Shown in pieces: positions 7,147-39,563 of a stretch of DNA of 61,897 nucleotides (positions within the stretch are counted from its first letter, which is position 1; each line of letters starts with the position of its first letter). The notes below the pieces were generated by a model. The model saw only the letters and a program-made list of their open reading frames with translations, ran no database searches and had not been told where the DNA came from. Location: assembly GCA_035717485.1 (NCBI GenBank), contig DASTIQ010000006.1:1-61897 (forward strand), given 5' to 3'. The position numbers and the translations under genes are program-made. The stretch is from Thermoanaerobaculia bacterium (lineage in GTDB: Bacteria; Acidobacteriota; Thermoanaerobaculia; UBA5066; DATFVB01).

Positions 7147-7189
7147 AGTGGTAATAACGGAGAACAGGAAGGGAAGTTCAGGTATTGCA

Positions 7190-7300
7190 AGCGCGGACCA
7201 TACGGGCTGCCATGCGCGTCCGCGCCCCGAACGCGTCTTTCAACCCGTCTGGCCGCGCCTCATCTCTGACCGAAAAGGCGCGGCCGGGAAGCCCGTTTGC
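7190..7300 (+). repeat. Interspersed intergenic repeat, copy 2 with a back-to-back remnant
   Basis: Reads GCGCGGACCATACGGGCTG, then the family core GAACGCGTCTTTCAACCCGT ending GGCCGCGCCTC. A perfect 10-bp inverted repeat GGCCGCGCCT / AGGCGCGGCC (7251-7260 and 7276-7285) then continues into GGGAAGCCCGTTT, which resembles the start of a copy in the opposite orientation. The 220-nt gap 7147-7366 holds nothing else recognisable. Confidence 0.65.
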
Positions 7301-9070: not shown

Positions 9071-10288
9071 CTAGCGGCCGGGATGGTCCGCGCTGGCCAC
9101 GCGTTGCGCCCGCAGCTCGCGGACCGCCCGGACCACCTCGCCGGCCGCGTAATCGACTTCGTCCTCGGTGTTGAATCGGCCGAGGCCGAAGCGGATCGCC
9201 GAATAGGCGAGCGCGTCGGGGACGCCGATCGCCTTCTGGACGTGCGAGGGCTCGATCGAAGCCGACGTGCACGCCGCCCCGGAGGAGACCGCGACGTCGC
9301 GAATGCCGGCGATCAGCGCTTCTCCCTCTACCCCCCCGAACGAGACGTTCAGGTTTCCGGGGATCCGCCACTCCGGCCCCTCCAGATTCCCGTCGGCGTC
9401 GATCTCCGGCAGCGGATAGCCGTTGAGATGCAGGTCGTCGAGCGCGGAGATTCGCGCCCACAGACGCGCGCGCAGGCGGCGGAGGCGCCGGGACTCTTCC
9501 GGGAGCTCCGCCGCCGCGAGCTCGCAGGCGCGGCCGAGCCCCACGATTCCCGGGACGTTCAGGGTTCCCGAACGCAGCCCGCGCTCGTGGCCGCCGCCGT
9601 GGATCATCGGCGACAGCCGCACGCGCGGCGCCCTTCCCCGCACGTAGAGAGCCCCGCATCCCTTCGGCCCGTAGATCTTGTGCGCGGTGATCGACACGAG
9701 ATCCACGCCGAAGGTCTCGACGTCGAACGGGATCTTTCCCGCTCCCTGCACCGCGTCGGTGTGGACGAGCACCCCGCGGGCGCGGCAGATCGCCGCGATC
9801 TCGCGCAGCGGATGGATCGTCCCGATTTCGTTGTTGGCGAGCATCAGCGTGACGAGCACGGTCCGCTCGGTGAGCGCGGATTCGACCTGGGCCGGAGAGA
9901 CCTGCCCGAAGCGGTCGGGAGCGAGCACCGTCACCTCGAAGCCCTCGCGCTCGAGCTCGCGGCAGGAGTCGAGGACGGCCTTGTGCTCCGTCGCGCCCGT
10001 CACGATATGGTTCCCCTTCTCGCGAGCGTGGCGCGCGGCGCCGAGGATCGCGAGGTTGTCGGACTCGGTCGCGCCGGAGGTGAAGACGATCTCGGCCGCC
10101 GTTGCGCCGAGGAACGCGGCGACCTTCTGTCGCGCCTCGTCCACGGCGGCCTCCGCCTCCCAGCCGTAGAGGTGATTCCGCGAGGCGGCATTCCCGAAAG
10201 CCGTCGTCAGGTAGGGCATCATCGCGTCGAGCACCCGCGGATCGATCGGCGTCGTCGCGTGATTGTCCATGTAGATCGGCGCCTTCAT
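9071..10288 (-). CDS. iscS: Cysteine desulfurase (IscS/NifS type)
   Basis: A 405-residue fold-type I PLP enzyme that takes sulfur from cysteine for Fe-S cluster and thio-cofactor assembly. Visible landmarks: [11 protein letters not shown] at the N-terminus, TEHKA with His102 stacking on [12 protein letters not shown], the Schiff-base Lys204 in [21 protein letters not shown], and the active-site Cys340 in [10 protein letters not shown] on the long IscS-type loop. Size fits IscS/NifS (about 400). No iscU, iscR or hscBA is adjacent, so it stands alone. Divergent from thyX, with 73 nt between start codons. Confidence 0.93.
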
Positions 10289-10345
10289 GATTCGATTCTA
10301 CGCCGCACCGGCCGGCCGAACGCGGCGCGCCGTCGGGCGAACTGG

Positions 10346-10351
10346 TAAAAT
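10346..10351 (+). promoter_or_regulatory. -10 box for thyX (probable leaderless transcript)
   Basis: TAAAAT lies 10 nt before the thyX ATG at 10362, with no Shine-Dalgarno sequence between. A start site 6-10 nt after a -10 box would fall at or next to the ATG. The same geometry is seen before ruvB and the gene at 34511. Confidence 0.5.
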
Positions 10352-10361
10352 CGTCGCTTCG

Positions 10362-11951
10362 ATGTCCACCGTGCGAGCGCCCGAAAATCCCCCGTTTGCC
10401 TTCCTCTCTCCGGCGCCGCACGTGCGCCTGACGCACGCGTTCACGCGTCCCTTCGAGAACGTCGTCGCGACCGCCCGGACGTGTTACTCGAGCAAGGGCG
10501 TCGTCGACGAGGACCAGGCGTCGCGAAATCCCGGGAAGCGCGACGCCCTCGCGAAGTCGATCTACGAGGCCGGGCACCACACGACTTTCCAGCACGCCCA
10601 CTTCCAGTTCGCGATCTCGAACGTGTCGCGACAGTTCCTCTGGACGTTCCTCCACAGCCACCCGTTCTACAACTCCGAGCAGGTTTCGCAGAGGTACGTG
10701 GAGGTCAAGGCCGGGAACTTCGCCGTTCCGCCGCTCGCCGGCGAAGCGCGCGAGCTCTTCGAGAGGACCGCGCGGCTCCAGAACGAGGCGTATGCCCGCC
10801 TGACGGAGCTCCTCGTGCCGATCTGCCGCGAGCGGTATTTCGGGCTCTTTCCGGGACGCCTCCGGGGAGACGGGCCACAGCGGTTCGCGGGAGCGGTCGG
10901 GAAGCGCGCGCAGGAGATCGCCCGCTACGTCCTTCCGGTCGCGACGTTCGCGTTCCTCTACCACACGGTCTCCGGCATCACGCTCTTCCGCTACCGCCGG
11001 CTCTGCGAGTCTTTCGACGCCCCGGTCGAGCAGCGTTACGTCGTCGACCGCATGGTCGCGGAAGTCCTGGCGCTCGACCCTCTGTACGCGACGGTGCTCG
11101 AGGATCCGATTCCCCTCGAGGAAACGCCGGAGTTCGAGGCGTTCCGGAGCGTCGCCGGCCGGCCCCCGTTCCACGCTCGGTTCCGGGAAGAGTTCGACGC
11201 GTCGCTCGAGGGCAAGACCTCGAAGCTCGTCGACTGGAAGGCGAACAACGAAGCGGTGCTCGCCGCCGCCGTCCGCGAGGTCCTGGGACTCCCCGCCTCG
11301 GAGATGAGCGACGACGATGCGATCGCGCTCTGCCTCGATCCCTCGAAGAACCGGCTGCTGGGCGAGACGCTGACGCTCACGACCCACGGGAAGGTCAGCC
11401 GGGCGATGTTCCACCCGGCGTGGACGTTCCGGAAGAAGCTCTCGCACACCGCGGACTCGCAGGACCAGCGCCACCGGATGACGCCGGCGTCGCGGCCGGC
11501 GCTTCCCGCCTACCTATCCGACGCGCCGGACTACGTCGTCCCGATGCTGATCGGCGAGGTGCCGGAAGCCGCCCGCCTCTACCGGGAGACGATGGAGCGG
11601 ACGTGGGAGGCGATCGGGACCCTCCGTGCCCGCGGCGTCGCCGACGAGTTCGCCGCGTACCTCCTCCCCAACGCCGTGCCGGTCCGGTTCACCGAGTCGG
11701 CCGATCTCCTGAACCTCCACCACAAGATGGCGATGCGTCTCTGCTACAACGCCCAGGAAGAGATCTGGGCCGCGTCGCGCGAGGAGGCGCTCCAGATCCG
11801 CGAGATCAATCCGCGGATCGGCCGCTGGCTCCTCCCGCCCTGCTCGCTCCGCCACGCGGCCGGAGTGCGGCCGGTGTGCCCGGAGGGAGACCGGTTTTGC
11901 GGCGACGTGGTGTGGAAGAGGGACGTCGCCGACTTCTCGAGAAAATTGTAG
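10362..11951 (+). CDS. thyX: Tandem-domain FAD-dependent thymidylate synthase (ThyX-like)
   Basis: A 529-residue protein, over twice the usual ThyX length (about 220-250), made of two ThyX-like domains. Domain 1 (about 20-240) has HHTTFQHAHFQFAISNVSRQ (72-91), a Ser-Glu-Gln-x-Ser-Gln-Arg-Tyr motif (105-112) and the helix VLPVATFAFLYHTVSG, but LHSHPFYN stands where RHR should be. Domain 2 (about 290-529) has RHRMTPAS (370-377), then LLPNAVPVRFTESADLLNLHH and an NAQEEIW helix. Known ThyX active sites form between subunits, so a fused pseudo-dimer with one or two hybrid sites is plausible. Role: dUMP to dTMP using methylene-THF, NADPH and FAD. ATG chosen because of the -10 box just upstream. Confidence 0.85.
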   Translation: MSTVRAPENPPFAFLSPAPHVRLTHAFTRPFENVVATARTCYSSKGVVDEDQASRNPGKRDALAKSIYEAGHHTTFQHAHFQFAISNVSRQFLWTFLHSHPFYNSEQVSQRYVEVKAGNFAVPPLAGEARELFERTARLQNEAYARLTELLVPICRERYFGLFPGRLRGDGPQRFAGAVGKRAQEIARYVLPVATFAFLYHTVSGITLFRYRRLCESFDAPVEQRYVVDRMVAEVLALDPLYATVLEDPIPLEETPEFEAFRSVAGRPPFHARFREEFDASLEGKTSKLVDWKANNEAVLAAAVREVLGLPASEMSDDDAIALCLDPSKNRLLGETLTLTTHGKVSRAMFHPAWTFRKKLSHTADSQDQRHRMTPASRPALPAYLSDAPDYVVPMLIGEVPEAARLYRETMERTWEAIGTLRARGVADEFAAYLLPNAVPVRFTESADLLNLHHKMAMRLCYNAQEEIWAASREEALQIREINPRIGRWLLPPCSLRHAAGVRPVCPEGDRFCGDVVWKRDVADFSRKL

Positions 11952-11952
11952 C

Positions 11953-12093
11953 GAGCGCGGCCATACGGGTCGCCATACGCGTCCGTGGCGTCCGCCGGCG
12001 GGATCAACGTACGCGCCGGTACGCCTCACCCGCCGGCCGGGCGCCCCGAACGCGTCTTTCAACCCGTCTGACCGCGCCTCGATCTCGAACGGC
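11953..12093 (+). repeat. Interspersed intergenic repeat, copy 3 (full length)
   Basis: Follows the thyX stop directly. Modules in order: GCGCGGCCATACGGGTCGCC, ATACGCGTCCGTGGCG, a CGTAC-loop-GTACG hairpin at 12008-12023 followed by CCT, then the core GAACGCGTCTTTCAACCCGT ending GACCGCGCCTC. The core is identical to copy 2 over more than 20 nt. Confidence 0.7.
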
Positions 12094-12174
12094 TGTCGAG
12101 TCTTCGGGGACGGACACAACCGCGGAGGCGGAGGCCTTCTTAATCCGGGCTTCATCTTTTGACGGACAAAGAGG

Positions 12175-12195
12175 GGCCCCGCCTCTTGCGGGGCC
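12175..12195 (+). other. GC-rich hairpin before the small ORF
   Basis: GGCCCCGC, loop CTCTT, GCGGGGCC: a perfect 8-bp stem. It ends 11 nt before the ATG at 12207 and abuts the GAGGAGGAG ribosome binding site, so it may be the 5' stem of a small RNA or control access to that site. Confidence 0.55.
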
Positions 12196-12206
12196 GAGGA
12201 GGAGTA

Positions 12207-12284
12207 ATGAAGGTTACTGGTTATTACGTCGAACGCGCGGGAAGGTTTCGTTATTTCCGGAAAACGAACTGGCGCGAATCTTGA
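12207..12284 (+). CDS. 25-residue peptide ORF or structured small RNA
   Basis: A 26-codon frame (ATG at 12207, TGA at 12282-12284) preceded by the strong ribosome binding site GAGGAGGAG. The peptide is very basic and aromatic: it begins MKVTGYYVERAG and ends KTNWRES, with four Tyr/Phe plus Trp. It matches no small ribosomal or known peptide family that I can recall. The transcript could equally be non-coding: stems TTTCGTT/AACGAA (about 12246-12267) and AACCC/GGGTT (about 12284-12298) sit between the GC-rich hairpin and a strong terminator. It lies between convergent thyX and rng, bracketed by inverted repeat copies. Confidence 0.45.
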   Translation: MKVTGYYVERAGRFRYFRKTNWRES

Positions 12285-12311
12285 ACCCCGGGAGGGTTCC
12301 TTCTTTTCCTG

Positions 12312-12344
12312 GGCCCGGGGAGCAATCCCCGGGCCTCTTTTTTT
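12312..12344 (+). terminator. Rho-independent terminator
   Basis: GGCCCGGGG, loop AGCAAT, CCCCGGGCC (9-bp perfect stem), then TC and seven T residues: the clearest intrinsic terminator in the window, for plus-strand transcription. It ends the small ORF/RNA or a long thyX 3' UTR. Confidence 0.85.
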
Positions 12345-12417
12345 CGCAGGCGTGGTGGCCAATCGTCGAGGCTCTGCGCGGGTCCCGGAGGTTGCGCCCT
12401 CAGTTCCGCCGAACTTG

Positions 12418-12500
12418 AGGCGCGGCCAGACGTGCGGGAAGACGGGTTCGGCGGCACGGCCTCGACGGACCCGTATAACCGCGCGTATGGTCCGCGCCTT
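12418..12500 (-). repeat. Interspersed intergenic repeat, copy 4 (inverted)
   Basis: On the minus strand: GGCGCGGACCATACGCGCGG, TTATACGGGTCCGTCGAGGC, then a core variant GAACCCGTCTTCCCGCACGT ending CTGGCCGCGCCTC. It is in the opposite orientation to copy 3 and directly abuts the rng stop. Together the two copies enclose 12094-12417. Confidence 0.65.
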
Positions 12501-13985
12501 TTACAGGACCGCGATTTCGTATCGCGCGGGAGGCAGGCTCTCGTCTTCCCTCAGCACGATCGACACTTCCAGCTCGCGCTCGACGTCGTCCAGGATCCGT
12601 TTCTCCTCGCGGAGCAGGCGGACGACGTCTCCCGAAACCCGGACGAGGATCGTCTCTCCCGACGTGAACGAGCGCGCGAGCTTCATGATCTCGCGGCGGA
12701 TGTCGAGGGCGACCGTGTAATCGTTCTTGACGCGCCCGTTGCCGCCGCAGGACGGGCACGGCTTCGTGAGCGCCCGTTCGAGCGAAGCCCGGGAGCGCTT
12801 GCGCGTGATCTGAACGAGGCCGAATTCGGAGATCTGGAGGATCTTCGACTTCGCGCGGTCCTTCTTCATCTCGGCCTCGAACGTCTCGAAGAGCTGCTGC
12901 CGGTGCTGCGCGTCCTCGAGATCGATGAAATCGACGACGAGGATGCCTCCGAGGTCCCGGAGGCGGATCTGCCGGACGATTTCCCGCGCCGCCTCGAGGT
13001 TGACGGCGAGCACCGTGTCCTCGAGGCTGTCCTTCCCGACGAACTTCCCCGAGTTGACGTCGATCGACACGAGGGCCTCGGTCGGGTTGATCACGATGTA
13101 GCCGCCGGACTTCAGCCACACCTTCGACTTGATCGCCTTCTCGATCTCCGCCTCGATCCCGAACTCCTCGAAGAAGAGGGGACTCGGCTTGTGCAGGCGC
13201 ACGCGGGAAACGAGCGCCGGCTCCATCGCGTTGACGAACTCGACGACGCGGCCGAACGCCTCGTGATCGTTGACGCGGATCGCCGCGACGTCCCGCGACA
13301 GGAGATCCCGGATCGAACGAAGGAGGAGGTCCTGCTCGCGGTGGAGGAGGGTCGGCGGGCGGGCGGACCGGGCGCGCGCCTGGATCGACTCCCAGAGCGC
13401 CGCTAGGTACGTCCGGTCGTTCTCGAACTCGTCGGCGGCGCGGCCTTCCGACACCGTGCGGGCGATGAACCCCCCCTCGCCGCGGAAAGCGTCGAGCAGC
13501 GTCTTCAGCCGCTCGCGCTCGGCTTCGTCCTCGATGCGCCTCGATATCCCGACGCGCGGCGAGAACGGGGTGAAGACGAGGAGCCGCCCGGGGAGCGAGA
13601 CGTTCGTGGAGACCCGCGCTCCCTTCGCGCCGATCGGTTCCTTGACGACCTGGACGACGAGGTCCTGCCCCTCCTTCAGGAGATCGTCGATCGAGATCGC
13701 CGGACGGGGCCGCGGCTCCTCGTCGGGAACGTCTTCTTCGTCCTCCCAGTCGTCGCGCACGTCGGCGACATAGAGGAACGCGTCCTTGTCGAGCCCGATG
13801 TCGACGAACGCCGCCTGCATCCCGGGAAGGACGCGCGACACCCGGCCGAGGTAGATGTCGCCGACGGTGCCCGAGCGCCGGGCGCGCTCGAGGAAGAGCT
13901 CCGCGGGCTTGCCGTTCTCCGTCAGCGCGACGCGGGTCTGCGCCGGGCTGCAGTCGATGAGGATCTCCTTGACGACGTCGTTCAT
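12501..13985 (-). CDS. rng: Ribonuclease G (RNase E/G family)
   Basis: A 494-residue endoribonuclease of the RNase E/G family, cutting AU-rich single-stranded RNA and maturing 16S rRNA 5' ends. Visible: the S1-domain N-terminus (GDIYLGRVSRVLPGMQAAFVDIG), an acidic insert (DDWEDEEDVPDEEPRPRP, about 79-96), the DNase I-like catalytic core with SIDVNSG and VVDFIDL (paired Asp residues for Mg), and the Zn-link CPSCGG. Length is that of RNase G, without the long RNase E C-terminal scaffold. Last gene of the mre run, 21 nt after rodA; rng next to mre genes is a widespread arrangement. Confidence 0.93.
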   Translation of the reverse strand: MNDVVKEILIDCSPAQTRVALTENGKPAELFLERARRSGTVGDIYLGRVSRVLPGMQAAFVDIGLDKDAFLYVADVRDDWEDEEDVPDEEPRPRPAISIDDLLKEGQDLVVQVVKEPIGAKGARVSTNVSLPGRLLVFTPFSPRVGISRRIEDEAERERLKTLLDAFRGEGGFIARTVSEGRAADEFENDRTYLAALWESIQARARSARPPTLLHREQDLLLRSIRDLLSRDVAAIRVNDHEAFGRVVEFVNAMEPALVSRVRLHKPSPLFFEEFGIEAEIEKAIKSKVWLKSGGYIVINPTEALVSIDVNSGKFVGKDSLEDTVLAVNLEAAREIVRQIRLRDLGGILVVDFIDLEDAQHRQQLFETFEAEMKKDRAKSKILQISEFGLVQITRKRSRASLERALTKPCPSCGGNGRVKNDYTVALDIRREIMKLARSFTSGETILVRVSGDVVRLLREEKRILDDVERELEVSIVLREDESLPPARYEIAVL

Positions 13986-39225: not shown

Positions 39226-39563
39226 CGCACCGTCGGCAGGCGGGGCGATGCATCGAGCCGGGCGGGCGCGTGCCCGCCGGCCGCCGGCACGACGTACGTT
39301 CTCAGTACGCCTTAGCCGACGGCCGGCTGCCCGCATCCCGCCGGGCTCGCGCCTCGCCGCGCCTCGATCACCTCGTTGCCATCGCCCTGGCGCCTTCCAG
39401 GACCATGTACGCCTTGCCGGCCGGCCGGCCCGCCCGGACCCGTCTTCCAACCCGTCTGGCCGCGCCCTGAGTCTGTCGGGCAGCCGGGGAGACGTGGAGG
39501 TGAGGCAACGTCTCGGACGGACGTTGAGGCGCGTCGAGAGCCGAGCGAGACGCGCGTGCAAGC
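39226..39563 (+). repeat. Interspersed intergenic repeat, composite copy 5
   Basis: The longest composite. 39245 has GCGATGCATCGAGCCGGGCG. 39293-39309 has the CGTAC-loop-GTACG module followed by CCT. 39328-39360 has GCATCCCGCCGGGCTCGCGC. 39400 has GGACCATGTACGCC. 39437-39469 has the core variant GACCCGTCTTCCAACCCGTC ending GGCCGCGCC. 39523-39560 has GAGGCGCGTCGAGAGC and GAGCGAGACGCGC, as near position 90. This fills the whole gap; no gene seen. Confidence 0.65.

Follow-up and report, generated by a model that had tools for sequence, protein, structure and literature searches.

A candidate small-RNA gene between stop-codon-anchored palindromic repeats in the thyX–rng spacer of an Acidobacteriota genome

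Results

The thyX–rng locus

The 61,897 nucleotides analysed here, referred to as the window, make up contig 6 in the draft genome (3.8 Mb, G000) of an uncultured member of the Acidobacteriota. The window carries two convergent genes: thyX, for a flavin-dependent thymidylate synthase, which ends in a TAG codon at 11949-11951, and rng, for a protein of the ribonuclease E/G family, which lies on the minus strand and has its end at 12501 (Table 1). The closest named relatives of thyX are Acidobacteria MAGs, e.g. gp7 AA6. The segment 12094-12417 is the convergent spacer of these two genes. Past the thyX stop lies copy 3 of an interspersed palindromic repeat, followed by a 334-nt interior and then by copy 4, and the two copies face each other because thyX and rng are themselves convergent. 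A first-pass annotation, made from the letters alone, had described copies 3 (+) and 4 (-) facing each other around 12094-12417, with hairpins, a ribosome-binding site, a small ORF and a terminator between them; the coordinates were confirmed and all of the small features are present where it had placed them. They include an 8-bp GC hairpin at 12175-12195, a second GC hairpin at 12283-12299 and a terminator stem at 12311-12336 that runs into seven T.

Table 1. Features of the thyX–rng region, in positions of the window
Feature	Position	Strand	Evidence and remarks
thyX (flavin-dependent thymidylate synthase, Thy1)	10287..11951	+	Pfam PF02511, E 4e-53
Repeat copy 3	11953..12081	+	Starts 1 nt past thyX stop; model R1 128 bits; covariation
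C/U-run TCCTCCTC with GC hairpin 12195-12175 and weak T-tail; weaker candidate	12166..12218	-	R2 16.1 bits, R3 11.0 bits
26-codon ORF MKVTGYYVERAGRFRYFRKTNWRES* (25 aa + stop), probably spurious	12207..12284	+	No homologue; GC3 0.52
Sigma-54-like site TGGCGC-GAATC-TTGAA (TGGCGCGAATCTTGAA)	12270..12285	+	9/11 consensus letters; GA not GC at -12
Proposed sRNA: GGAGGG, C/U-rich CCTTCTTTTCC, terminator 12311-12336 and seven T	12291..12344	+	R3, R2; fold z -2.5
Repeat copy 4 (short form)	12416..12499	-	Starts 1 nt past rng stop; R1 72.6 bits
rng (ribonuclease E/G family)	12501..13985	-	Pfam PF10150, E 4e-99

A family of palindromic repeats anchored at stop codons

A repeat profile made from 28 copies gave 133 matches in the genome, and removal of the opposite-strand duplicates of the palindrome left 111 distinct copies. 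The repeat is an imperfect hairpin of about 128 nt, with a short form of about 80 nt that is without the middle, and it keeps a single fixed orientation to genes. With neighbouring genes called by a simple coding score made for this analysis, the gene reads into the repeat at 95 of the 108 copies with a callable neighbour (binomial p 7e-17), and in 84 of 108 testable copies the repeat starts 0-15 nt past the stop codon of the inward-reading gene. Covariation supports the hairpin: over 29 copies, drawn from two species, pairing holds in 91.8% of cells, compared with 28-41% when the structure is slid, and there are 85 double changes against 29 in shuffles. Only three pairs are held by model R1, which came from a mixed alignment, and it was the restricted alignment A2 that yielded the true hairpin. 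Besides copies 3 and 4, the window has repeats at 81-209, 7189-7262, 39238-39366 and 39407-39469.

Pairs of repeats face each other at ten sites genome-wide and stand in tandem at seven, the latter with a uniform spacing of 35-46 nt; no back-to-back pair was found among the repeat copies of the genome. All nine facing pairs other than that between thyX and rng also lie at convergent genes, and their spacers measure 48-154 bp, against which the 334 nt between thyX and rng are exceptional. The palindromes that flank the interior are independent 3' elements of thyX and of rng, one each.

The family is abundant in the second genome of the genus (G001), with 110 matches, and 29 other relatives have almost none of it, so that among 31 genomes it is confined to the genus bar two marginal matches. 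Where sites could be tested in both G000 and G001, the element was present in G001 too at 22 of 27, and its sequence was often closer to a different copy than to its positional partner. The repeat sequences give the impression of having been exchanged or homogenised, as concerted evolution or replacement in place would do.

The interior

In the 62 kb of the window, the only terminator with a stem of at least 8 and at least six T is that at 12311-12336, and a genome-wide search with one pattern gave only about fifteen comparable seven-T terminators. Those elsewhere in the genome lie mostly 19-39 nt past a stop codon where an ORF could be identified. The succession of C/U-run, hairpin and T-tract occurs twice in the 324-nt segment 12094-12417, one per strand, where the sister species has seven such successions in 650 kb, or about one per 90 kb. 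The interior is single-copy in the genome, and nothing in 40 relatives matched it at the DNA level beyond short GC-rich or terminator-like stretches. No sigma-70 promoter was found in the segment, and at gathering score the window holds no known RNA family except a tRNA.

An sRNA-like unit downstream of rng in relatives

Just downstream of rng and on the rng strand, 14 relatives (11 in family f2 and three in the sister family f3) carry a conserved C/U-rich segment with a terminator, roughly 30-150 nt past the rng stop. At the f2 loci (L313, L316, L318, L319, L321-L323, L325-L327 and L330) the unit shows TGGCAC-N5-YTGC, followed in most of them by GGCGCACACTCCAGCCTCTCCTCCCA and after that by a GC-rich terminator and a T-tract; the first motif has the form of a sigma-54-type promoter. 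The f3 versions, from three genera, consist of GGRGTCAGCACGCGATACCTTCCTTCC followed by a terminator and have no clear sigma-54 site. The unit of these relatives has no match in Rfam, and almost no literature on sRNAs of Acidobacteriota was found. Judged from sequence conservation, it is an undescribed rng-linked sRNA-like gene that is conserved across the order. A model built from the f2 versions (R2) had its top whole-genome matches at rng sites in f2. One genome, G011, has an extra copy that is not linked to rng (L350).

The interior compared with the rng-linked unit

With filters off, model R3, which rests on the three f3 sequences only and whose E-values are rough, gave its best score in the window, 25.0 bits (E 1.3e-4), to 12291-12344 (+), the next match having 12.5 bits. 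In controls, R3 gave at most 15.4 bits to the seven-T terminator loci of the genome and at most 16.9 bits in 838 kb of other sequence from the genus. R2 likewise ranked this plus-strand module first in the window (17.5 bits) and the minus-strand module (12241-12168) second, with the reservation that unrelated terminators of the genome also receive 17-24 bits from it. Like the unit of the relatives, the plus module has a C/U-rich segment and a strong terminator that score with both of their models, and it lies downstream of rng, 157-210 nt past the stop and behind copy 4. It differs in strand, the best module being opposite to rng and the weaker one on the rng strand, and the R3 match is short, without the GTCAGCACGCGA part that is conserved in f3.

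The sigma-54-like site starts 21 nt ahead of the R3 match. It retains nine of 11 consensus letters and is missing the near-invariant GC at -12; four sites of such quality occur in the window, counting both strands. The minus module shares both strand and side with the relatives' rng-linked sRNA, and in a shuffle test its similarity to the f3 units L315 and L317 was significant, at z 4.9-5.9 (5.9 with L317; controls at most 3.3), with comparable scores at two other places in the window. The plus and minus modules were also considered as inverted duplicates of each other, a comparison that was not significant (z 1.8). In G001, a C/U-rich terminator unit beside a lemA-like gene (L359, 1499-1566 of G001:C20) scored 30 bits with R3, which was run there because R2 had flagged the locus; this unit is a possible second family member in the genus.

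Discussion

We propose that the interior of the thyX–rng spacer holds this species' version of the rng-linked small-RNA gene and is not a transposable cassette, a reading to which we give about an even chance. Conservation of a unit after rng in the relatives and the best match of the window in the corresponding spacer both point to it. One suggestion of the first-pass annotation, an sRNA locus of the chromosome that the repeat had entered twice, came close to this explanation, and what can now be added is the sRNA-like locus that follows rng across the order and the agreement of R3 and R2 on the interior as its best match in the window. An apparently odd cassette has in this way led to a putative, undescribed small-RNA gene of an Acidobacteriota order that adjoins an RNase gene. 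Our confidence is limited because the orientation of the plus module to rng is reversed, because the -12 box of its presumed promoter is defective and because the sister species has an assembly gap at this place: in G001, which is the only further genome from the genus, one contig breaks off within thyX and another just within rng.

If the module is homologous to the relatives' unit and is transcribed, its product would be a plus-strand RNA of about 50 nt, running from about 12291-12295 to 12344, in which a strong terminator hairpin comes after a single-stranded C/U-rich part. The degenerate sigma-54-type promoter that overlaps the end of the small ORF may drive it, the f2 counterpart having a promoter of the same type. 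By analogy with trans-acting C/U-rich anti-Shine-Dalgarno (aSD) sRNAs, this C/U-rich part would reduce the translation of target mRNAs by pairing with their G/A-rich ribosome sites; the aSD motifs of the sRNA NfeR1 pair with ribosome-binding sites (PMC10746234). NfeR1 (alpha-r14) of Sinorhizobium has in common with the candidate that it is a short RNA with a C/U-rich unpaired segment complementary to the Shine-Dalgarno sequence and a strong terminator hairpin (PMC10746234). The candidate differs from it in that there is no CCUCCUCCC identity and in having one or two modules where NfeR1 has three hairpins; it also belongs to another phylum, is rng-linked and has a sigma-54-type promoter in its relatives. 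A further likeness is to the Rfam family suhB/mmgR (RF00519), with which it shares two hairpins, a C/U-rich linker and a terminal poly-U, and which scores 31.4 bits at 12279-12350, below the gathering score of 41. The suhB/mmgR family is alphaproteobacterial, and the resemblance is likely to be one of architecture rather than descent.

The main rival is that the spacer is ordinary 3' UTR with no separate gene and that the transcripts of thyX and rng overlap in it, those of thyX passing copy 3 and stopping at 12311-12344 and those of rng stopping at the weaker 12195-12175. The convergence of the flanking genes agrees with this, as do the failure to find a sigma-70 promoter in the segment and the presence of terminators on both strands in the places that overlapping 3' ends need. 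However, a terminator of any kind follows within 350 nt at only one of 101 other testable repeat copies, and in six relatives none was found within 600 nt of thyX. An ordinary 3' UTR also sits poorly with the length of the spacer compared with the other nine facing pairs and with the R3 match of the interior to the rng-linked unit, and we consider it rather unlikely. Another explanation is a real small-protein gene, in which a basic 25-residue peptide would be translated from its own Shine-Dalgarno sequence and the mRNA would be ended by the terminator. The ATG at 12207 is directly preceded by such a sequence (GAGGAGG or GGAGGAG), and only 1.8% of the dinucleotide-shuffled versions of the segment contained an ATG that had GGAGG and at least 24 codons, although looser rules raised this to 21%. 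The terminator begins 26 nt past the ORF stop, within the 19-39 nt that are usual in this genome, and one seven-T terminator elsewhere does follow a tiny gene. Against this, no homologue of the peptide was found in 149 genomes of the class, in 396 sampled from the phylum, in plasmids, in Pfam or in PDB; weak matches (E 0.04-1), among them those in G009 and G193, cover short parts of unrelated frames and were dismissed. The GC3 of the ORF is 0.52 against 0.92, and no 25-codon stretch in four genes of the neighbourhood has less than 0.76. Its Shine-Dalgarno sequence is the antisense of the minus-strand C/U-run, and its last codons coincide with the sigma-54-like site. Because it has no homologue, uses foreign codons and draws its ribosome site from the complement of a C/U-run, the ORF is probably spurious; a real small protein seems improbable to us, and the part of the first-pass reading that concerned the ORF is not supported, since neither conservation of the ORF nor host-like codon use was found. 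An attenuator with a leader peptide was rejected, as no plus-strand gene follows the interior before rng, which is antisense.

The first-pass annotation had offered as one reading a mobile cassette, MITE-like or RNA-bearing, whose terminal inverted repeats would be the two repeat copies, since facing copies do enclose an interior that has hairpins and a terminator. Each copy, though, is a complete palindrome by itself, belonging to thyX or to rng and anchored at the stop of that gene (11951 or 12501, respectively); nine further convergent sites have facing pairs as well, and the spacers differ among the ten. The check that had been suggested, a search for the same unit at other loci, found no second site, the interior being detected neither elsewhere in the genome nor in 40 relatives. 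We therefore hold a mobile cassette to be hardly credible. The repeats could bear on the small-RNA gene in another manner, in that the plus module may have been reversed with respect to rng through recombination between the two facing palindromes, which would give exactly such a reversal. It is very improbable, in our estimate, that they form an inversion switch that flips the interior so that the sRNA module points now to rng and now to thyX; were this so, the partner or antisense target of the module would change between cells or species.

The tiny gene mentioned above (L270, G000:C234 near 2740-2874) encodes a 22-aa Lys/Ala-rich protein, MATKKKAAPKKKATAKKSSKKK, which is histone-H1-tail-like, and has a strong RBS ahead of it and a seven-T terminator behind.

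The flanking repeats resemble REP/BIME palindromes (PMC3733652) in having more than 100 copies, in being intergenic near gene 3' ends and in that convergent genes each have their own copy close to the end. Di Nocera et al. (PMC3733652) report this arrangement for REPs, in which each of the two ORFs has a convergent REP next to its 3' end, and stop-codon-proximal REPs are discussed in PMC12306157. Unlike REP/BIME, the present repeats are about 128 nt long, take one fixed orientation to the gene, show no GTAG-type tag and, apart from the two marginal matches, are confined to one genus of the 31 genomes. No RAYT (Y1_Tnp) gene was found in the genome (a draft, 97% complete), and a RAYT-mobilised REP was rejected on this ground. 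Integron attC sites were considered because of the size, the palindrome and the stop-codon anchoring; by eye, the repeats have no RYYYAAC/GTTRRRY ends, and the copies are dispersed at housekeeping genes. With more than 80 genes of one genome ending in stop-codon-anchored hairpins, the family offers a good test system, in which an action of such hairpins on translation termination, mRNA decay or transcription end could be examined. Two stop codons at which G000 carries the repeat have in G001 another, GC-rich sequence, with CGTCGCGGGAGC in common (L299, 2083-1743; L301, 6239-5893), perhaps an alternative repeat family that is likewise anchored at stop codons.
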